This document shows, piece after piece, positions 349 through 8,980 of a stretch of 36,927 nt of DNA. The notes under the pieces were generated by a model. That model had not been told where the DNA came from, made no database searches, and saw nothing but the letters and a program-made list of their open reading frames with translations. Every line of letters begins with the position of its first letter. The stretch's first letter is position 1. This DNA comes from an uncultured bacterium. GTDB lineage: Bacteria > Bacillota_I > Bacilli_A > RF39 > UBA660. The DNA lies in assembly GCA_949284575.1 (NCBI GenBank), contig CASDWO010000064.1:1-36927 (forward strand), written 5' to 3'. The translations under genes were made by a program, and so were the position numbers.

Positions 349-1104
349 ATGATAGATACACATTGTCATTTAAGTAAAGATGATTATGATGATATAGATT
401 TAGTAATTAAAGAAAATAAAGAAGCAGGTGTAAGTAAAATGATTGTATCTGCTTGTGATAAGAAAAGTATGTTAGAAATAATTTCTTTAAAAGATAAATA
501 TGATTTTTTATATGTTACTATGGGGTATCATCCTTCAGAAGCTTTATCAGTTATAGATAAAGATTTACAGGACTTAAAGAAAAACTTAAAACTTTCTAAA
601 GTTGTTGGAGTAGGAGAGATCGGTTTAGATTATTACTATTCTAAAGAATTTATTGAAAAACAGAAATGGCTTTTTGAAGAGCAATTAAAAATAGCTCAAG
701 AGTTAGATATGCCTGTTGTTATACATAGTCGAGATGCTACTTTAGATACAATAAACATTTTAAAAAAATATTCTGTTAGAGGGATTATTCATTGTTTTAG
801 TGGAAGTTTAGAAACTGCTAATATTTATATAAAAATGGGCTTTTATTTAGGAATAGGTGGAGTTTTAACTTTTAAAAATTCTAAATTAAAAGAGATAATT
901 AAATCTTTATCTTTAGATAATATTGTACTTGAGACTGATAGTCCTTATCTTACTCCTGTTCCTTATAGAGGGAAAAAGAATTCATCTAAATATTTAAAAT
1001 ATGTTGTTTTAGAACTTGCTTCTATAAAAGAAATGGATCCTAAAGATGTAATAGAAATAACTACTAGAAATGCTAATAGTTTGTTTGACTTTAATAATAA
1101 GTAG
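349..1104 (+). CDS. tatD: TatD-family metal-dependent DNase
   Basis: This 251-residue TIM-barrel hydrolase is of normal length for TatD/YabD 3'-5' DNases that use two metal ions. Visible ligands are the N-terminal THCH (His5, His7), Glu90 in GVGEIGLDYY, His126 in VVIHSRDA, His148 in GIIHCFSG and Asp197 in ETDSPYLTP. The ATG at 349 is chosen because GGTGGAG lies just upstream and the protein then opens with MIDTHCHL, as in the family. The frame stays open up to an ATG at 238, but that would translate the omega-RNA/right-end sequence. As in B. subtilis, it sits next to a yabE-like gene. Confidence 0.93.
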   Translation: MIDTHCHLSKDDYDDIDLVIKENKEAGVSKMIVSACDKKSMLEIISLKDKYDFLYVTMGYHPSEALSVIDKDLQDLKKNLKLSKVVGVGEIGLDYYYSKEFIEKQKWLFEEQLKIAQELDMPVVIHSRDATLDTINILKKYSVRGIIHCFSGSLETANIYIKMGFYLGIGGVLTFKNSKLKEIIKSLSLDNIVLETDSPYLTPVPYRGKKNSSKYLKYVVLELASIKEMDPKDVIEITTRNANSLFDFNNK

Positions 1105-1142
1105 TGCTATTCTTTTATTATAAGAAAATGAGGTAGATGCTA

Positions 1143-1730
1143 GTGGGAAGTAGATTTGTTAAATATTTAGGAACTGTTATTTTGGTTTTTGTTATGGGGT
1201 TTATTATATTATCTGGTAATAGTTTAACTGTTATAAATACATCAAATTTAAATAGTGTTAAATCTTTACAAGCAGTTCATATAGTTAATAAATATAATTC
1301 GATTAAAGAATCATTAAAAGAAAAAGAAATAGTTGTTTTTCCTACTTTTAACGAAGCAATGCAAGTTGCTAGTACATCACCTGTAGCTTTTATGGGTAAA
1401 CTTACAGCGTATGGTCCAGATTGTCCAGGATGTTCTGGTAATAGTGCTTGTCCGCCACGGCAAAATTTTAAAAATGGAAATATTTATTTTGAAGATCAAG
1501 ATTATGGTAAAGTAAGAGTAGTTGCTGCTGATCGTTCTATTCCTTGTGGTAGCATTGTAAGAATAAGTGGAATCAATATATATAGCGAGCCTATTCTTGC
1601 TATTGTTATGGATAGAGGTGGAGCGGTTAAAGGTAATCATATGGATTTACTTTTTACTAGTCAGTCTAATTTAGAAGGATTTGCTACTAGTAGTAATATA
1701 AAATTTGAATTAATTAGATATGGATGGTAA
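1143..1730 (+). CDS. Exported 3D-domain protein (YabE-like, cell-wall active)
   Basis: A 195-residue protein with an N-terminal membrane anchor or signal (about residues 7-25) and a C-terminal 3D domain. The three aspartates that name the domain lie in AADRSIPCGS (Asp130) and MDRGGAVKGNHMDLLF (Asp157, Asp168). 3D domains have a double-psi beta-barrel fold and occur in Gram-positive lytic transglycosylases and resuscitation factors such as YabE/YocH. The DUF348/G5 repeats of B. subtilis YabE are absent. A Cys-rich insert (CPGCSGNSACPP) precedes the barrel. GTG 1143 lies 9 nt from TGAGG, whereas ATG 1137 is only 3 nt away, so GTG is preferred. A terminator follows. Confidence 0.82.
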   Translation: MGSRFVKYLGTVILVFVMGFIILSGNSLTVINTSNLNSVKSLQAVHIVNKYNSIKESLKEKEIVVFPTFNEAMQVASTSPVAFMGKLTAYGPDCPGCSGNSACPPRQNFKNGNIYFEDQDYGKVRVVAADRSIPCGSIVRISGINIYSEPILAIVMDRGGAVKGNHMDLLFTSQSNLEGFATSSNIKFELIRYGW

Positions 1731-1735
1731 ATATT

Positions 1736-1771
1736 AATAATATGCATTTTATGTGTATTATTTTCTTTTTT
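1736..1771 (+). terminator. Rho-independent terminator after the 3D-domain gene
   Basis: Stem AATAATA/TATTATT (1736-1742 with 1756-1762), extended inward by GCAT/ATGT, then a T-rich tract (TTTTCTTTTTTT). It separates tatD and the 3D gene from the fibre locus. Confidence 0.7.
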
Positions 1772-1825
1772 TGAAGAATACTAATGTTAGACATAATAAA
1801 ATTTTGTTAACAAGAAAAAAATCTA

Positions 1826-1855
1826 TTGCTAAAGCAAAGTAAAATATGTTATAGT
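1826..1855 (+). promoter_or_regulatory. Sigma-A-type promoter of first TasA-like gene
   Basis: TTGCTA (1826-1831), 18-bp spacer, TATAGT (1850-1855). A strong AGGAGG Shine-Dalgarno follows at about 1866. The -10 region and leader (atgttatagtt...) recur almost unchanged before the second TasA-like gene. Confidence 0.6.
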
Positions 1856-1880
1856 TATATTGTAGAAGGAGGTCTAGCAT

Positions 1881-2492
1881 ATGGATCAAAATAATTCAAG
1901 ACAAATATTATTATCTGTATTGGGAGTTGCTATATTAGTAGTAGCTGTTATAGGAGTATCTTTTGCAGCTTTTCAATTCGGGCAAACCGGTGAAAAGGTT
2001 AATACAATTACTACAGGTACAATTACCATGAGTTATAGCGAACCTGTAAATGCTATTAACTTAGTAAATGCTTTACCTATGACTGATGAGCAAGGTAAAC
2101 AACTTACTGGAACTGGTAATACTTTCGATTTCTCAGTTAATGCAACAATTGATGGTGAAGATGTAACTATTAATTATGCTATTACTGCAGTTAAAGATGG
2201 TGGTAGTACATTACCTGATTCAGCTGTTAAAGTATATCTAACTGACTATACTAGTGGTAGTGAGTCAGATGTATTAGCACCTACAAAGGTAAGTGCTTTA
2301 ACAAAAACAACAGCTGGTGAATTATCAGGAGCTCCTGCAGATGAATATGAACTTACAACTGGTACTTTACAAGCTTCTAAGAATACAAGTTATCGTTTAA
2401 GAATGTGGGTAGCTGATGATTATAGTGATCTTGAAAGTTCTGGAACATATATGTTAAAAGTAAATGTATATGGAGCTGCAGCTGCTAAATAA
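1881..2492 (+). CDS. TasA/camelysin-like SipW-dependent exported protein 1
   Basis: A 203-residue protein. Its N-terminus is a hydrophobic signal (about residues 9-30, ending VIGVSFAAF) typical of SipW-processed TasA/CalY proteins. Next comes a conserved block TITTGTITMSYSE and, near the C-terminus, YRLRMWV (about 171-177) followed by a final beta-strand. TasA and camelysin form extracellular beta-rich fibres in biofilms; a signal peptidase of the matching ER type lies three genes downstream. It is Ala/Thr/Ser-rich and low in charge compared with its two neighbours, as a major subunit might be. It has its own promoter and its own terminator, so it is expressed as a single-gene unit. Confidence 0.82.
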   Translation: MDQNNSRQILLSVLGVAILVVAVIGVSFAAFQFGQTGEKVNTITTGTITMSYSEPVNAINLVNALPMTDEQGKQLTGTGNTFDFSVNATIDGEDVTINYAITAVKDGGSTLPDSAVKVYLTDYTSGSESDVLAPTKVSALTKTTAGELSGAPADEYELTTGTLQASKNTSYRLRMWVADDYSDLESSGTYMLKVNVYGAAAAK

Positions 2493-2518
2493 AAGAGCAT
2501 TAAAAATGCTTTTTTTTG
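2491..2518 (+). terminator. Terminator after TasA-like 1
   Basis: AGCAT/ATGCT stem (2496-2500 with 2506-2510), loop TAAAA, followed by seven T. It begins at the stop codon. Confidence 0.8.
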
Positions 2519-2548
2519 TAAATATATAATTTTATTTAATTTTAATTA

Positions 2549-2577
2549 TTGCTTAGAATTTGTAACTATGTTATAGT
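2549..2577 (+). promoter_or_regulatory. Sigma-A-type promoter of second TasA-like gene
   Basis: TTGCTT (2549-2554), 17-bp spacer, TATAGT (2572-2577). The sequence from the -10 to the Shine-Dalgarno closely matches the leader of the first TasA-like gene, suggesting the promoter was duplicated with the gene. Confidence 0.62.
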
Positions 2578-2602
2578 TTTATTATAGAGGAGATGGGCAG
2601 AA

Positions 2603-3214
2603 ATGAATAATGCGGAGAAAAAACGTAATTCTAATCAACTTATTTTAACAGTCTTAGCAATACTTATATTAATAATAGCAGTTATTGGTGTATCATATGC
2701 AGCTGTCTTTTATAGTAAAGATGGAGAGAAAGTAAATTCTGTGACTACTGGAAGTATGATGATGAGTTATAGTGAGTTAACTAATGGAATTAATCTTTAT
2801 GATGCTTATCCAATGACGGATGAAGAAGGTAAAGCTTTAAGTCAACCTAATGAGTATTTTGATTTTACAGTTAGTGCTACAACTAAAGAGAATAGTCCAA
2901 TTAGTTATGTTATATCTGTAAGTAAAGAAAGTGATAGTACATTACCTGATTCAGCTATTAAAGTATATTTAACTGATATTAGTGCTAACAATGAAATTGA
3001 AGTATTACCTCCTACAAATGTTTCAGCATTAAGTAAAACTGGTAATGAAAGTTATGCACCTAGTGGTCAATATATTTTAAAATCAGGTAGTTATACAAAA
3101 AATACTTCTAATACTTATCGTTTAAGAATGTGGATTGATAAGAATTATAATTTGGATGATAGTATTCAAAGTTATAAATTGCGTGTTAATGTTTATGGTG
3201 GTATTAACATATAG
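2603..3214 (+). CDS. TasA/camelysin-like SipW-dependent exported protein 2
   Basis: This 203-residue paralogue of the preceding protein shares the hydrophobic export signal (ending VIGVSYAAVFY), the TTGSMMMSYSE block, the GINLYDAYPMTDEEGKAL segment, a STLPDSA.KVYLTD segment and YRLRMWI near the C-terminus. It is slightly more charged than paralogue 1. It has its own promoter, Shine-Dalgarno and terminator, so its level can be set independently of paralogues 1 and 3. It is probably a secreted fibre subunit or minor pilin-like partner released by the SipW-type peptidase encoded at 3988. The fibre role is inferred from the family and neighbours. Confidence 0.82.
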   Translation: MNNAEKKRNSNQLILTVLAILILIIAVIGVSYAAVFYSKDGEKVNSVTTGSMMMSYSELTNGINLYDAYPMTDEEGKALSQPNEYFDFTVSATTKENSPISYVISVSKESDSTLPDSAIKVYLTDISANNEIEVLPPTNVSALSKTGNESYAPSGQYILKSGSYTKNTSNTYRLRMWIDKNYNLDDSIQSYKLRVNVYGGINI

Positions 3215-3218
3215 AAAA

Positions 3219-3246
3219 TAAGAGTGTATTTAATACACTTTTTTCT
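3219..3246 (+). terminator. Terminator after TasA-like 2
   Basis: Palindrome AGTGTATTTAATACACT (3223-3239) followed by a run of T. It overlaps the start of the next promoter. Confidence 0.78.
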
Positions 3247-3274
3247 TTACCAAAAAAAGTTCATGTGTTACAAT
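3246..3274 (+). promoter_or_regulatory. Candidate promoter of the TasA-like 3 / sipW operon
   Basis: TTTACC (3246-3251), 17-bp spacer, TACAAT (3269-3274), then a GAGGAG Shine-Dalgarno before ATG 3300. The -35 is weak, and the box abuts the preceding terminator T-tract. Confidence 0.5.
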
Positions 3275-3299
3275 TAAATTATGCTAGAGGAGTGTTATT

Positions 3300-3938
3300 A
3301 TGGATAATAATTATGCTAATCAAAATAATCAAAAAAATGAGAATGATTCAAAGCTCTTTATTATAGTTATATCATTATTGATATTTATAATAGCAGTTAT
3401 TGGTATTTCTGTTGCAACTTTTACTTATACTTATAATGAAGAACGCAAGAATGTTAATACTATTAGTACGGGTAGTGTTTATTTAAACTATACAGAAAAT
3501 ACGAATGGTATTAATATTACTGATGCTTTTCCTATAAATGATGAAGTAGGTAAAGTTTTAACAGATGAGAATCAATATTTTGATTTTACAGTTTCTGCTG
3601 ATTTTTCTCGTGGTCTTAGTGCTAATTATGAAATTGCGGCTGAAAAAGTAAATAGTTCTACTCTTTCTAATGATGAAGTAAGATTATATCTTGAGAGAAA
3701 AGTTGGTGATTCTTATGAAGAAGTTATGGCTCCTAGTAATTTTGTTCCATTAAAAGAAAAAACTGATTTAGGAACAGAAGCAGGTAAAATGTTATTAGAT
3801 AAAGGTACTTTTACAGAGACTTCAACAGTTAACTATCGTTTAAGAATGTGGGTAGCAGAAGGTACAGTTTTAGGAGAATTACCAAAGAATTTCGGTGTTA
3901 GAGTATCTGTTAAAGCTAAAGTTGATATAGCAAAATAA
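3300..3938 (+). CDS. TasA/camelysin-like SipW-dependent exported protein 3
   Basis: This 212-residue paralogue has a longer Asn-rich N-terminus before the hydrophobic signal (about residues 18-40), then NTISTGSVYLNYTE, GINITDAFPINDEVGKVL and the C-terminal YRLRMWV block. It is more diverged and more charged than paralogues 1 and 2. No terminator is visible between it and the signal peptidase gene 49 nt downstream, so it probably leads the operon that runs to 6362. It may be a minor or initiating subunit made together with the processing machinery; that is inference from operon position only. Confidence 0.8.
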   Translation: MDNNYANQNNQKNENDSKLFIIVISLLIFIIAVIGISVATFTYTYNEERKNVNTISTGSVYLNYTENTNGINITDAFPINDEVGKVLTDENQYFDFTVSADFSRGLSANYEIAAEKVNSSTLSNDEVRLYLERKVGDSYEEVMAPSNFVPLKEKTDLGTEAGKMLLDKGTFTETSTVNYRLRMWVAEGTVLGELPKNFGVRVSVKAKVDIAK

Positions 3939-3987
3939 ATATTTTGTTTCTTTTTGCTTTAAAATGGAATATTAAGAGGGTGAGAAC

Positions 3988-4692
3988 TTGAAAGATAAAT
4001 TTAAAGAGCTTGTGCCTAAAGTAAAGAAGGCTGTTCATTTTGCTTTAACAGTACTTATGTATTCAATATGTTTAATTATGATTATTGTTTTTTCAGTATT
4101 TGTAATTAACTTTATTGATAAAAGGCATAATGTAAAAGCTGGTAATAATAAAAAAGATCTTTTTTCTGCATATACAATAGTTAGTCCTAGTATGACACCA
4201 ACTATTAATGTACTTGATGTTATTGTTATTAAAAGAGCAGATGAACCTACAGACATTAAAAAAGGTGATATAATAACTTTTAATTCGACAGATTATAGAT
4301 ATTCAGGTGTTTTAGTTACTCATAGAGTTGTTGATGTAGAAAAAACTAGTAATGGTAAATATTTATATACAACTAAAGGAGATAATAATAATACACAGGA
4401 TTCATCAAGAATTAGTTTTGATGATGTTTATGGTAAAGTATTATTTAGAATACCTAAAATTGGTTATATTCAATATTATTTAGGTTCAATATTAGGTTGG
4501 GTAGCGATAGTGGTTGTGCCAGCTCTTCTAATTATTGGTTATGATATTTACAAATTAATTAAAACTTTACGTTCTTCAGCAAATGATAATAATAAGACTT
4601 TAGATAATAGAAAAAAATTGACTTATAAAAAGATTACTGATAAAAAGAAAAAATCAGGTAATAAAGATAGTAAAAGGAGATTTAATAAATGA
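3988..4692 (+). CDS. sipW: SipW-like ER-type signal peptidase I
   Basis: A 234-residue S26B peptidase with transmembrane segments at about 20-42 and 166-188 and a Lys-rich cytoplasmic tail. The catalytic Ser68 lies in VSPSMTPT. His112 in LVTHRVV takes the place of the Lys of ordinary bacterial SPase I, and Asp132 (TKGDNN) or Asp138 completes the site. This Ser-His-Asp arrangement defines the archaeal/ER-type SipW enzymes that process TasA-type proteins. The start is TTG 3988, behind AGAGGGTGAG. It overlaps the next gene by ATGA (4689-4692). The three TasA-like proteins upstream are its obvious substrates. Confidence 0.88.
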   Translation: MKDKFKELVPKVKKAVHFALTVLMYSICLIMIIVFSVFVINFIDKRHNVKAGNNKKDLFSAYTIVSPSMTPTINVLDVIVIKRADEPTDIKKGDIITFNSTDYRYSGVLVTHRVVDVEKTSNGKYLYTTKGDNNNTQDSSRISFDDVYGKVLFRIPKIGYIQYYLGSILGWVAIVVVPALLIIGYDIYKLIKTLRSSANDNNKTLDNRKKLTYKKITDKKKKSGNKDSKRRFNK

Positions 4693-5237
4693 AAAAAATG
4701 ATTTTGTTAATAGTAGCAGGAATTATATTGTTTGCTTTTATATTTGGAATGTCAGTTTTATGGTATGATTTCTTTTATAAGGAGCCTGTTGAAAATGAAC
4801 CATTAACAACAATAAAAATACAACTTGATGATAATAATAATACAATTAATGAAGGAGGATTAATTCCTATTAGTGAAGATGAAGTTGATAATTTAACTCC
4901 ATATAAATTCTCATTACAAAATACAAGTGATAAACAAAGTACGTATGAAGTATTAATAGAAGATGCAGTTATTAGTGATGATCCATCCTTTAGCAGTAAA
5001 GAATTGCTTAGTAGAGAGCAACTTGGTTATCAATTGATACTTAATGGACAAATTATAAAAACAGGGTTATTAAGTGAAATTGAAAATAATGTTTTAGATA
5101 AAAGAGTAATAATGGAAAATGCAATAAATAATTATCATTTAAGAGTTTATGTAAGTGAAAGTGCTATAAATACAGAATGGCAAAATAAATATTATCATTA
5201 TGATATTCAAATTAGAACTGTGGAGGATAACGAATGA
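4689..5237 (+). CDS. Membrane-anchored accessory protein, distantly TasA-like
   Basis: A 182-residue protein with one N-terminal membrane segment (about residues 4-26) followed by an acidic, Asn-rich extracellular part. Near the C-terminus YHLRVYVSESA...YHYDIQIRT matches the YRLRMWVAD...LKVNVYG pattern of the three fibre proteins, and an internal LTPYKFSLQNTSD stretch resembles the start of a beta-sandwich. I infer a diverged member of the same fold that serves as anchor, assembly factor or minor subunit, in the position TapA holds beside TasA in B. subtilis. No sequence similarity to TapA itself was seen. It overlaps both neighbours by 4 nt. Confidence 0.6.
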   Translation: MKKMILLIVAGIILFAFIFGMSVLWYDFFYKEPVENEPLTTIKIQLDDNNNTINEGGLIPISEDEVDNLTPYKFSLQNTSDKQSTYEVLIEDAVISDDPSFSSKELLSREQLGYQLILNGQIIKTGLLSEIENNVLDKRVIMENAINNYHLRVYVSESAINTEWQNKYYHYDIQIRTVEDNE

Positions 5238-5923
5238 AAAAGATATTGTTAGATTATATTAATATAATAGGGTATGCTTTTACGGGTTTAATATTTGGTC
5301 TTACCTTTTTCCTTTTATTTATTAATTTTTATCATTTTGAAGAGCTAAAATATGAAACTGATATGACTTCTTTTAATGCTACTACTAAAGCTGATATTGA
5401 AAGTAAATTACAAACTATAAAAAATAATATTAGTGTTTATGATCAAAGTACTTATACAGGTAATAATAATATTTATGGACTTAATAATGTTAAGATAAAA
5501 TTAGAGTCTTGTGTAGAAGCTATTGAAAGTGAAGAGATGATGAATTATTTTAATGATAATGAGATTAGTATTTTAGATACTTATAATCTTTTAAGAACTT
5601 ATAATAATAAAATTTTAAATAATTGTTTAGTAATGCAGGTAAAAGCAATGTTTAATTCTGCTGCGGTTGCTACTCTTCCTAATTATAATATAATTAAGCC
5701 TTATGTTGATTTAAATGCTGATATGTTAATTACTTCTTTAAGTTATGTAGAAAATAATTTAGAAAATTCAGATCATTTTTATTATACTACTTCTAATAAT
5801 AAGAATAATTTCTTTAATATAGTAGATGATAGTTATTATGAAATTATTGGTAATTATCAAGATACACTTGATTTATTAGTATTAATATCTGATTGGTATA
5901 GAACCGTAGTTACAGGAGGCTAA
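5234..5923 (+). CDS. Unknown exported or membrane-anchored protein of the fibre operon
   Basis: This 229-residue protein was not recognised. It has one N-terminal membrane segment (about residues 10-32) and then roughly 195 residues that look mainly helical and extracytoplasmic, rich in Asn, Tyr and Ile with few basic residues. Two cysteines (in ESCVEA and NNCLVM) could form a disulphide. The start ATG overlaps the stop of the previous gene (ATGA), implying translational coupling with the SipW operon. A role in fibre assembly or anchoring is suggested by operon membership alone. Confidence 0.6.
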   Translation: MKKILLDYINIIGYAFTGLIFGLTFFLLFINFYHFEELKYETDMTSFNATTKADIESKLQTIKNNISVYDQSTYTGNNNIYGLNNVKIKLESCVEAIESEEMMNYFNDNEISILDTYNLLRTYNNKILNNCLVMQVKAMFNSAAVATLPNYNIIKPYVDLNADMLITSLSYVENNLENSDHFYYTTSNNKNNFFNIVDDSYYEIIGNYQDTLDLLVLISDWYRTVVTGG

Positions 5924-5924
5924 A

Positions 5925-6362
5925 ATGAAAAAGATATTTAATGGTTTATTTTATATTTTAAAGTTTATATTATTAATTGCAGCTTTTGGACTAACTTTAT
6001 TCATTTTAATTAGAATGAATACTAGGTTGAGTAAGAGTATGGTGTCTATTATTCCTGAACTTATACCTTATGTATTATTATTAATTGTATTTATTATTAA
6101 TATGCTCTTTAAACAAGAAGGAGTTACAAAAAACTTATTTTATAATTTGACTTGTTCTTTAGCATTATTTACTATTGCTTTTGCTTGTTATAGAGCTATG
6201 TTTGATTCTAATTTGGTGTTAGCAACTAAGTATGGCTATAATATCGATTTTAATTTTTTTGATAATTTTATTGCATATATAAAAATTTTAATTTATGGTT
6301 TAATTTTTGTTAATATTTTATTTATGTTTAAATATAAAGAGAAAAAACAAGTGACTGATTAA
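5925..6362 (+). CDS. Unknown four-helix membrane protein, last gene of the fibre operon
   Basis: A 145-residue, very hydrophobic protein with about four predicted membrane segments (roughly 8-28, 43-60, 75-92 and 112-132) and short charged loops. No family was recognised. It begins one base after the preceding stop, with GGAGG upstream, and is followed by a clear terminator, so it closes the operon. It may form part of the export or anchoring platform of the TasA-like proteins. Confidence 0.6.
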   Translation: MKKIFNGLFYILKFILLIAAFGLTLFILIRMNTRLSKSMVSIIPELIPYVLLLIVFIINMLFKQEGVTKNLFYNLTCSLALFTIAFACYRAMFDSNLVLATKYGYNIDFNFFDNFIAYIKILIYGLIFVNILFMFKYKEKKQVTD

Positions 6363-6367
6363 TTTTT

Positions 6368-6399
6368 AAAGAGACAATTTTTAGAGTTGTCTTTTTTCT
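6368..6399 (+). terminator. Terminator of the fibre operon
   Basis: AGACAA/TTGTCT stem (6372-6377 with 6387-6392) followed by TTTTTT. Confidence 0.8.
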
Positions 6400-7237: not shown

Positions 7238-7280
7238 TATATTTATATTGCTTTTTACATAATATTTATTGGGTGATTTT

Positions 7281-8060
7281 ATGTTTAAAGTAGGTGACTT
7301 TGTAACTAGAAAATCATATAATAATGATATTTTATTTGTCATTGTTGATATAAATGATTCTCTTGCTTATTTAAAAGGAAAAGATGTTAGACTTTATGCT
7401 GATAGTACTTTAGATGATTTAGTTTTAGTTGATGTTAATAATAGTAATAGTGATGATAGAAATGATATTTTAAAAGTTAAAACGATGCTTAGTTTAGATA
7501 GAAGTGAATATTTTTATTTACCTGGAAAGATTCTTCATATTGATGGTGATAAAGATTACTTAAAAAGATGTATTGATTTTTATAAAGAGATGCATTTAGA
7601 AGCTTATGGGGTTAATTTATTAGAAAGTGATATGGAAAAAGAGATATGTAATTGCTTAAATGAGTATAAACCAGATATTCTAGTTATTACAGGTCATGAT
7701 TCTTTTAAAAAGAATAAAGATAAGAATGAAATAAATAGTTATCAAAATTCGGAAAATTTTGTAAAAGCGACAATAAAAGCTAGAGAGTTTGAAAGAAATC
7801 AAGATAAGTTAATTATTATTGCAGGAGCTTGTCAATCTTTTTATGAGGATTTAATTAAAGCTGGTGCTAATTTTGCTTCAAGTCCTAAACGTATTAATAT
7901 TCATGCTCTTGATCCTGCTATTATTGCTAGCAGTATTGCTTTATCTCCTAAAAATAAAGAAATTGATTTACTTTCAGTAATTGAAAAGACACATTATGGT
8001 AGTGCAGGAGTTGGTGGTATTATTACACCAGGTGTTATGTATGTGGGGTATCCAAGATGA
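7281..8060 (+). CDS. yabG: Sporulation-specific protease YabG
   Basis: A 259-residue YabG-family protein. YabG is a cysteine protease that trims spore-coat and cortex-related proteins late in sporulation in Bacilli and Clostridia. Visible marks are the N-terminal GDFVTRKSYNND, LVITGHDSFKKNK, IIIAGACQSFYEDL (with the likely catalytic Cys) and the terminal GVGGIITPGVMYVGYP. ATG 7281 follows GGGTGAT, and the upstream TTG extension is unlikely. It overlaps veg by ATGA, so the two are translationally coupled, and it sits exactly where B. subtilis has it. Its presence argues for a sporulating lineage. Confidence 0.9.
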   Translation: MFKVGDFVTRKSYNNDILFVIVDINDSLAYLKGKDVRLYADSTLDDLVLVDVNNSNSDDRNDILKVKTMLSLDRSEYFYLPGKILHIDGDKDYLKRCIDFYKEMHLEAYGVNLLESDMEKEICNCLNEYKPDILVITGHDSFKKNKDKNEINSYQNSENFVKATIKAREFERNQDKLIIIAGACQSFYEDLIKAGANFASSPKRINIHALDPAIIASSIALSPKNKEIDLLSVIEKTHYGSAGVGGIITPGVMYVGYPR

Positions 8061-8275
8061 ATATTGATAAAATAAGAGAAGATGTAAAACTTAAAGAAGG
8101 GGAGATCTTGCATTTTAAATTTAATGGTAGTAGAAATCAAATTGTTGAGTTTGATGGAGAAATAATAGAAACTTATCCTGCTATTTTTTTAGTAAAATTA
8201 GTAGATGATGCTAATCATATAAAATCTTTTTCGTATAGTGACTTAGTTACCTCTAGTTTAGAAATAATTAAGTGA
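8057..8275 (+). CDS. veg: Veg family protein
   Basis: A 72-residue basic/acidic protein of the Veg family, slightly shorter than the roughly 86 residues of the B. subtilis protein. It shows the conserved IREDVKLKEGE start and GSRNQIVEFDGEI, followed by an ETYPAIFLVKL strand and an FSYSDLVTSSLEI end. In B. subtilis, Veg affects biofilm matrix gene expression through SinR/SlrR. That is notable here because TasA-like genes lie 2-6 kb upstream, although any link in this organism is inference. The family call also rests on its position directly after yabG. Confidence 0.85.
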   Translation: MNIDKIREDVKLKEGEILHFKFNGSRNQIVEFDGEIIETYPAIFLVKLVDDANHIKSFSYSDLVTSSLEIIK

Positions 8276-8281
8276 AAACTC

Positions 8282-8310
8282 TTGCAAAAGTTTAATAGTT
8301 ATTATAAAAT
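8282..8310 (+). promoter_or_regulatory. Candidate promoter of spoVG
   Basis: TTGCAA (8282-8287), 17-bp spacer, TAAAAT (8305-8310). No obvious SigH-type -35/-10 pair was seen, although B. subtilis spoVG uses one. Confidence 0.5.
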
Positions 8311-8351
8311 AATGTTATAAAGTAATAATTACTTAAAAGGAGGAGTCGACA

Positions 8352-8630
8352 ATGAAAATTACATCTGTAAATGTACGAAAAATTGAAAAAGAAGGAAGTC
8401 GTATGAAAGGAATAGCATCTGTTCTACTTGATGATTCTTTTGCTGTTCATGATATTAGAATTATAGAAGGAGATAATGGTCTTTTTATCGCTATGCCTAG
8501 TAAGAAGACACAAACTGGTGGATATCGTGATATAGCTCATCCAATTAATCCTGAAGTTAGAGCGATGTTTCAAGATAAAATTATTGAAGAATATAATAAA
8601 ATTAAAGATGAAACAAATGAAGAAGCTTAG
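8352..8630 (+). CDS. spoVG: SpoVG RNA/DNA-binding regulator
   Basis: A 92-residue SpoVG. Conserved segments: [15 protein letters not shown] at the start, [19 protein letters not shown], then [24 protein letters not shown] and a C-terminal helix. SpoVG is a small nucleic-acid-binding regulator that affects sporulation, capsule and other surface traits in Firmicutes. It has a strong AAAAGGAGGAG Shine-Dalgarno, its own promoter and its own terminator, so it is a single-gene unit that is probably highly expressed. Confidence 0.96.
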
Positions 8631-8641
8631 ACTTCTTTTTT
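8620..8641 (+). terminator. Terminator overlapping the spoVG stop
   Basis: AAGAAG/CTTCTT stem (8620-8625 with 8632-8637) followed by T residues. The 5' arm encodes the last codons of spoVG. Confidence 0.75.
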
Positions 8642-8686
8642 TAGTCTATATTTTTTTTACTTGCATATAATTAACTAGGTGATGAT

Positions 8687-8980
8687 ATGGAAACGAAAGA
8701 AGCAATTATAAATAATTATAATCATAGTATAACTTTAACAGAAAGAAAGAATTTGCTTATTACAGGAGTTAAAAAGATTGTTAATTTTGATAGTGAAGAA
8801 TTTTTACTTGAAACAATTATGGGTTTTTTAGTAGTTAAAGGAGAAGAATTAGAACTGGTTAAATTAGATACATTATCTGGTAATGTTTCTATTAAAGGAC
8901 TAATAAAAGGTTTTTCATATATGGATGATAATAAAAAAGAAAAAGAAGGAAATAGCGTCTTTAATCGCTTATTTAAATAA
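8687..8980 (+). CDS. yabP: Sporulation protein YabP
   Basis: A 97-residue YabP/YqfC-family protein: HSITLTERKNLLITGVKKI, then VNFDSEEFLLETIMGFLVVKG, ELELVKLDTLSGNVSIKG and LIKGFSYMDD. The repeated beta-strand pattern is characteristic of this spore-formation family. It overlaps the yabQ start by one base and lies before divIC as in B. subtilis, which supports the call. GGTGATG precedes the ATG. A CATATAAT box at 8664-8671 could be a -10 element, and it loosely resembles a SigE -10, but no convincing -35 was found. Confidence 0.87.
   Translation: METKEAIINNYNHSITLTERKNLLITGVKKIVNFDSEEFLLETIMGFLVVKGEELELVKLDTLSGNVSIKGLIKGFSYMDDNKKEKEGNSVFNRLFK

Follow-up and report, generated by a model that had tools for sequence, protein, structure and literature searches.

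In this work we analysed a stretch of 36,927 nucleotides from an uncultured bacterium of the GTDB lineage Bacillota_I, Bacilli_A, RF39, UBA660 (GenBank assembly GCA_949284575.1, contig CASDWO010000064.1, positions 1 to 36,927 of the forward strand), hereafter called the window, and within it a set of seven genes that probably builds surface protein fibres. The seven open reading frames (ORFs) listed in a preliminary description of this DNA were all recovered, and they are given below with the signals around them.

1826..1855, + strand: promoter-like site 5' of tasX1 (TTGCTA, 18 nt, TG-TATAGT; consensus match only)
1881..2492, + strand: tasX1, 203 amino acids (aa), SipW-type signal GVSFA↓AF, single TasA-like beta-sandwich domain; candidate major fibre subunit
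2491..2519, + strand: hairpin AGCATT...AATGCT with T-run in the tasX1/tasX2 gap, by direct reading; likely terminator
2603..3214, + strand: tasX2, 203-aa paralogue, 49% identical to tasX1
3300..3938, + strand: tasX3, 212-aa paralogue, 34% identical to tasX1, directly 5' of sipW
3988..4692, + strand: sipW, ER/archaeal-type signal peptidase I, TTG start, Ser68, His112, Asp132
4689..5237, + strand: g4689, TasA-like domain after an N-terminal membrane helix; candidate membrane base/anchor or fibre nucleator
5234..5923, + strand: g5234, membrane helix and outer domain of about 195 aa, genus-specific; possible assembly factor
5925..6362, + strand: g5925, small protein with several hydrophobic membrane-like segments, final gene of the sipW operon
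6369..6396, + strand: weak hairpin GACAA...TTGTC followed by a T-run, by direct reading; likely transcription terminator

The three tasX products share a SipW-type signal and a domain of about 170 aa. The preliminary description had recognised them as paralogues by this signal, a TTGxxxMSYSE-like block and YRLRMWV, and an alignment of 51 tasX members bears this out: both YRLRMW and the TTG...MSYSE-like block hold throughout, and N41, T45-G46, Y52, E54, Y171 and L173-W176 (of YRLRMW) are invariant. The predicted model of tasX1 (pLDDT 79.7, pTM 0.72) ranks the TasA fibre 8aur_A first in the VIA fold comparison, with Z 6.4 over 136 residues at 4.2 Å, a Z below or near 8 being one that can arise by chance. 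The NCBIfam TasA model NF046066 touches five of the 51 members weakly, reaching only 0.0033, which is below the curated cut-off, and when the tasX and g4689 profiles were searched against the sequences in the PDB nothing meaningful came up; only the comparison of folds gave a match.

Genes 4689, 5234 and 5925 had been regarded as unknown. This holds for 5234 and 5925; searches of Pfam and NCBIfam (E ≤ 1) gave no family for any of the three and no match to the TapA/YqxM family model, in agreement with the earlier statement that no TapA-like sequence is present. A candidate assignment of g5234 to USH1C_N was rejected because the match is below cut-off. The label of unknown does not hold for g4689, whose profile aligns with the tasX profile (hhalign probability 95.5, E 1.4e-8) over the entire domain; the stretch preceding L-I-P and N-Y-x-L-R-x-Y-V are part of the alignment. 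The helix at residues 2-29 of g4689 carries no A-x-A site, and the protein would therefore remain in the membrane. By this comparison g4689 is a fourth, divergent member of the tasX family with an apparently uncleaved membrane anchor, which makes it a candidate fibre base, anchor or nucleator. Its predicted model (pLDDT 79.9) finds an archaeal bundling pilin, an archaeal thread and chaperone-usher pilins with Foldseek, and in the VIA comparison its best match is again 8aur_A, with Z 8.1 over 131 residues at 3.3 Å, a value near 8 that can likewise be due to chance. These scores are modest, and what weight the likeness to TasA fibres has comes from the agreement of two separate models on the first rank, taken with the adjacent SipW. 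Of the checks proposed earlier, profile searches left the TasA/camelysin family PF12389 unmatched and structure prediction placed 8aur first for both models.

The 3988 protein, described earlier as an ER-type signal peptidase, scores 101.9 bits with TIGR02228, whose cut-off is 51.85 bits, and Ser68, His112 and Asp132 were confirmed at those numbers; it matches the SipW model NF046067 at 2.8e-30, yet below that model's cut-off. An ER-type signal peptidase and proteins with SipW-type signals are thus co-located, as they are for TasA-like fibre subunits. A second ER-type signal peptidase is encoded elsewhere in the genome (L040, G000:C15:1-7327, at 1819-2394), so SipW need not be the sole processing enzyme. 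Beside the C15 gene are encoded a 403-aa protein whose signal is possibly of the SipW type, an AAA+ ATPase-like protein and a 675-aa protein that has an S24/S26-like domain at its N-terminus; relatives give similar matches. These genes possibly form a separate system.

The sipW, 4689 and 5234 genes are joined by successive start-on-stop overlaps and 5925 begins one base later, an arrangement that makes the four look like one operon, while every tasX gene has a spacer of its own. The claim that the set ends at a terminator fared less clearly, as a weak hairpin and T-run are visible at about 6369-6396, but a strict terminator scan (at least three G-C pairs) found nothing there or at 2491-2519. 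Promoter-like sites are common in this AT-rich DNA (57 observed versus 37.7 expected). The seven genes sit between the yabE-like gene and rsmA, as described before, and family matches of the window neighbours (TatD, a 3D-domain yabE-like gene, RsmA, YabG, Veg, SpoVG and YabP) agree; given these neighbours, the set occupies the rnmV slot of Bacillus subtilis. The YabG, SpoVG and YabP families (window 7269-8980), in a genome of about 1.5 Mb, indicate that the lineage may still form spores.

The gene order is kept across the genus near Candidatus Onthousia. In relatives it runs tasX, sipW, g4689, g5234, g5925, rsmA, yabG as far as the stretches extend, and the same order is found in 23 loci of named metagenome-assembled genomes, one of which is Candidatus Onthousia faecipullorum; this retention argues that the arrangement is not due to chance. 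A search for the 5234 gene succeeded in 31 of the 35 genus genomes and gave nothing in 25 others. The earlier fibre proposal would have been undermined by relatives of the 4689-5925 genes lying commonly away from sipW; in the loci inspected good 5234 matches adjoin sipW, and 4689 and 5925 are present there too. Copies of the tasX1 type number one to five per genome at the locus, in tandem. A tasX2 occurs at the same site in relatives, while a deeper branch (L091, L093-L096) has tasX1-like and tasX3 matches instead, with no tasX2 called.

The tasX domain extends far beyond this locus, a point that the preliminary description missed: the window locus appears, from the sequences, to be the conserved core of a genome-wide module family. 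A search of the 1.48 Mb genome with the tasX1 protein gives 34 matches, and with wider queries the module is carried by 36 ORFs or fragments, four window genes included. It forms the N-terminus of about 20 longer proteins. Sixteen module ORFs continue into DUF6273, a C-type-lectin-like domain that passed the Pfam cut-off in three of the tested proteins; in two others the continuation is into leucine-rich repeats of DUF285 (L024 being assigned by its similarity to L023), and further ones have tails of unrecognised kind. The P2' residue is aromatic, as in TasA, in 20 of 27 recognisable signals, mostly of the A↓AF type. All 35 genus genomes carry the module, with 2-35 matches each, and in a sample of the class the matches of a module-DUF6273 protein at E ≤ 1e-10 came from the same family only.

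Several of these lectin-like proteins are linked to diversity-generating retroelements (DGRs), for which DUF6273 has been described as a target with a C-lectin fold in phages (PMC11792537, PMC10743442). The genome encodes two DGR-type reverse transcriptases (RTs) and two others (L020 = C48, L042 = C57); the C48 enzyme has a motif of the group II intron type and adjoins a broken module-DUF6273 gene. The DGR-type RTs match RVT_1 over cut-off and, as is typical of DGRs, have IGNMTSQ or IGNYTSQ instead of QGxxxSP. On contig C39 the order is module-DUF6273 gene, bAvd (PF22296, 44.2 bits versus a cut-off of 40), RT and template repeat (TR); Avd-like ORFs are also present in relatives, several of which have the cassette order target-TR-Avd-RT, with an RT of about 316 aa (IGNYTSQ in the one read). 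On contig C109 two variable regions (VRs) lie in a module gene that carries a pair of DUF6273 domains, and a TR lying about 100 bases 3' of the gene reads SSNVRNVNNNGNENNNNPSNANGV. The two VRs mismatch this TR at 25 of 52 adenines and at 1 of 92 other positions. A C39 template serving all dispersed lectins was rejected, as its backbone is unlike their VRs and a matching TR lies beside the C109 target. In relatives (and at L015, 6080-6290) TRs are framed by the complementary flanks GGAAATTACC ... GGTAATTTCC, which may pair into a stem within the RNA of the template.

The motif flanking the TR on its 3' side is present in 20 of the 35 genus genomes, whereas a reversed-pattern control gave none. 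Eleven TR-linked targets start with a tasX-module match followed by a DUF6273 array. For 24 VRs picked by position and compared with the local TR, with mismatches counted uncapped, differences fall on 286 of 563 adenines versus 163 of 1165 other bases (Fisher p 2e-57), most of the latter coming from four VRs that no longer fit the local template. The DGR anatomy (RT, Avd, and TR/VR pairs with adenine-directed differences) is thus well supported at the level of sequence. In the relative G024 an intact cassette is flanked by a thiI-like and an ackA-like (acetate-kinase-like) gene; a prophage home was rejected in view of these housekeeping genes, and since the decayed copy on contig C106 of the present genome also adjoins an ackA-like gene, the cassette is chromosomal. 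A second kind of DGR (L045, G000:C74:6500-11500, at 561-3494) encodes an RT of 354 aa and a 121-aa Avd-like ORF, with three short ORFs of RGGxYNxxxNAGVFNFN-like reading (template or VR remnants), beside ribosomal protein genes; RTs related to it are found in several genus genomes.

These observations suggest the following model. TasX1-3 would be exported by Sec and cut after A-x-A by the neighbouring SipW, leaving a mostly AF... N-terminus, which by analogy with TasA would act as a donor strand inserted into the groove of the next subunit. In TasA the donor strand comprises residues 28-38 (PMC9674648); the mature ends of TasA and TapA are AFNDI and AFHDI, respectively, and TapA donates the first strand (PMC10151520). 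The g4689 protein, of the same fold and retaining its membrane helix, would anchor or start the fibre, with g5234 and g5925 as putative genus-specific membrane helpers. The approximately 20 longer module proteins would also be cut by SipW and are predicted to join the same fibres or surface layer, so displaying their C-terminal heads, DUF6273 C-type-lectin-like domains or leucine-rich repeats, along the fibre or at its tip, and chromosomal DGRs would rewrite the ligand loops of some lectin heads by adenine-directed mutagenesis. We give a probability of about 0.62 to this model, that is, to a SipW/TasA-type fibre core with a g4689 base and module-lectin heads on the fibres, some of them diversified by DGRs. 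The sequences themselves show operon conservation, the shared module, the DGR anatomy, the adenine bias of the variation and the chromosomal setting, and from them we infer fibre formation, SipW cutting, polymerisation, g4689 anchoring, the placing of heads on fibres and ongoing DGR activity. The earlier proposal of a TasA-type fibre system of a small-genome lineage with a different gene set survives in its main lines, given the 8aur rank, the adjacent SipW and the A↓AF signals, with the corrections that 4689 is not unrelated to the subunits and that PF12389 is unmatched. The stronger version, in which one donor-strand module polymerises plain and lectin-headed subunits alike and a chromosomal RT rewrites the heads, making a genus-wide hypermutating adhesive fibre, is more tentative, at slightly less than even odds.

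Several observations weigh against the model. The Z of 6.4 for tasX1 is within the range of chance among beta-sandwiches and only 0.4 above the next row, and PF12389 was neither matched by the three paralogues (Pfam, E ≤ 1) nor listed among the families of the 51 members. Genomes G006, G008, G021 and G031 retain modules with no good match to the window sipW, probably owing to assembly gaps, and the C15 signal peptidase could serve some substrates. The DGR genes are on contigs other than that of the window; the C109 cassette runs off its contig, which ends soon after a 100-aa ORF, and the C106 copy (L173, G000:C106:1-2400) is decayed, consisting of a truncated DUF6273 gene, a truncated template with an inverted repeat and an RT fragment. 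Among the 27 VRs of this genome, 2 match their own TR, 10 resemble TRs of relatives and 15 do neither, and the idea that all DUF6273 heads in the genome are currently diversified was rejected for lack of a good match of these 15 to any known template.

Part of this evidence could belong to two unconnected halves, a fibre made by the window genes and separate module-lectins, maybe processed by the C15 enzyme, attached otherwise and diversified independently by DGRs. The C15 peptidase does have neighbours of its own, and the N-modules of many DGR targets have diverged more than those of the core paralogues; however, far fewer genus genomes retain a peptidase of the C15 type than retain the window sipW, and the dispersed modules most like tasX1 have 40-47% identity to it and share its A↓AF site, so that we regard this separation as unlikely, if the most serious of the alternatives. 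Somewhat less probable still is that the TasX proteins are secreted monomers (camelysin-like, soluble matrix, or signal-plus-spacer), the module being an export or stalk domain that forms no polymer. Such a role would suit a module that heads very different proteins, a low-confidence segment after the signal in the tasX1 model (residues 27-48) and the lack of a TapA match, but it leaves aside that the fibre form of TasA comes first for both models, with other donor-strand pilins next, and that single-domain copies stand one to five times in tandem beside sipW, as for structural subunits. Fibres on the spore surface rather than on the growing cell, suggested by the adjoining yabG and the YabG, SpoVG and YabP families within the window, are highly improbable, as the synteny is that of the ordinary yab core, which requires no functional link, and the modules are spread throughout the genome.

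If the fibre model with DGR-diversified heads is true, an uncultured lineage of the gut, whose DNA amounts to about 1.5 Mb, devotes much of its surface repertoire to self-mutating lectins on TasA-like modules, and what these bacteria bind in the gut becomes testable. The known role of TasA fibres is that of a biofilm matrix, and DGRs are known to diversify ligand sites; in the literature searched we found no paper on SipW together with a DGR. As in the B. subtilis tapA-sipW-tasA operon, an ER-type signal peptidase lies beside the subunit genes, the processing site is of the A↓AF type, the beta-sandwich subunits rank 8aur first and sipW is joined start-on-stop to a partner gene. In contrast with that operon, there are here several tandem subunits, an unmatched TapA, a membrane-anchored TasA-fold protein with two genus-specific membrane genes, and a module fused to lectin and leucine-rich-repeat heads genome-wide, modular fusions and a membrane-anchored member that would widen the TasA-like kind. 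Archaeal bundling pili (Pyrobaculum, 7ueg) and threads (7pnb), the top Foldseek rows of g4689, are likewise TasA-related or donor-strand beta-sandwich structures, but they are archaeal and sequence similarity to them was undetected. DGRs of cells and phages whose targets are C-type lectins (Roux et al., PMC8144416; PMC11792537; PMC10743442) have the same RT, Avd, TR, VR ending the DUF6273/C-lectin domain and adenine-directed changes, whereas those described here are chromosomal, lie beside housekeeping genes and have a target fused to a SipW-type TasA-like module, often with two VRs. The closest analogue is the type V pilus of Bacteroides, in which DGRs reportedly diversify the pilins at the tip (Macadangdang et al., cited in PMC12632263): there, donor-strand-type pili of a gut bacterium have ligand-binding parts diversified by a DGR, as is proposed here. 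The present system differs in belonging to a Gram-positive lineage, in being of the TasA/SipW type instead of having lipoprotein pilins and in its two VRs per target, and it would, if the model is correct, be the Gram-positive equivalent of those pili.

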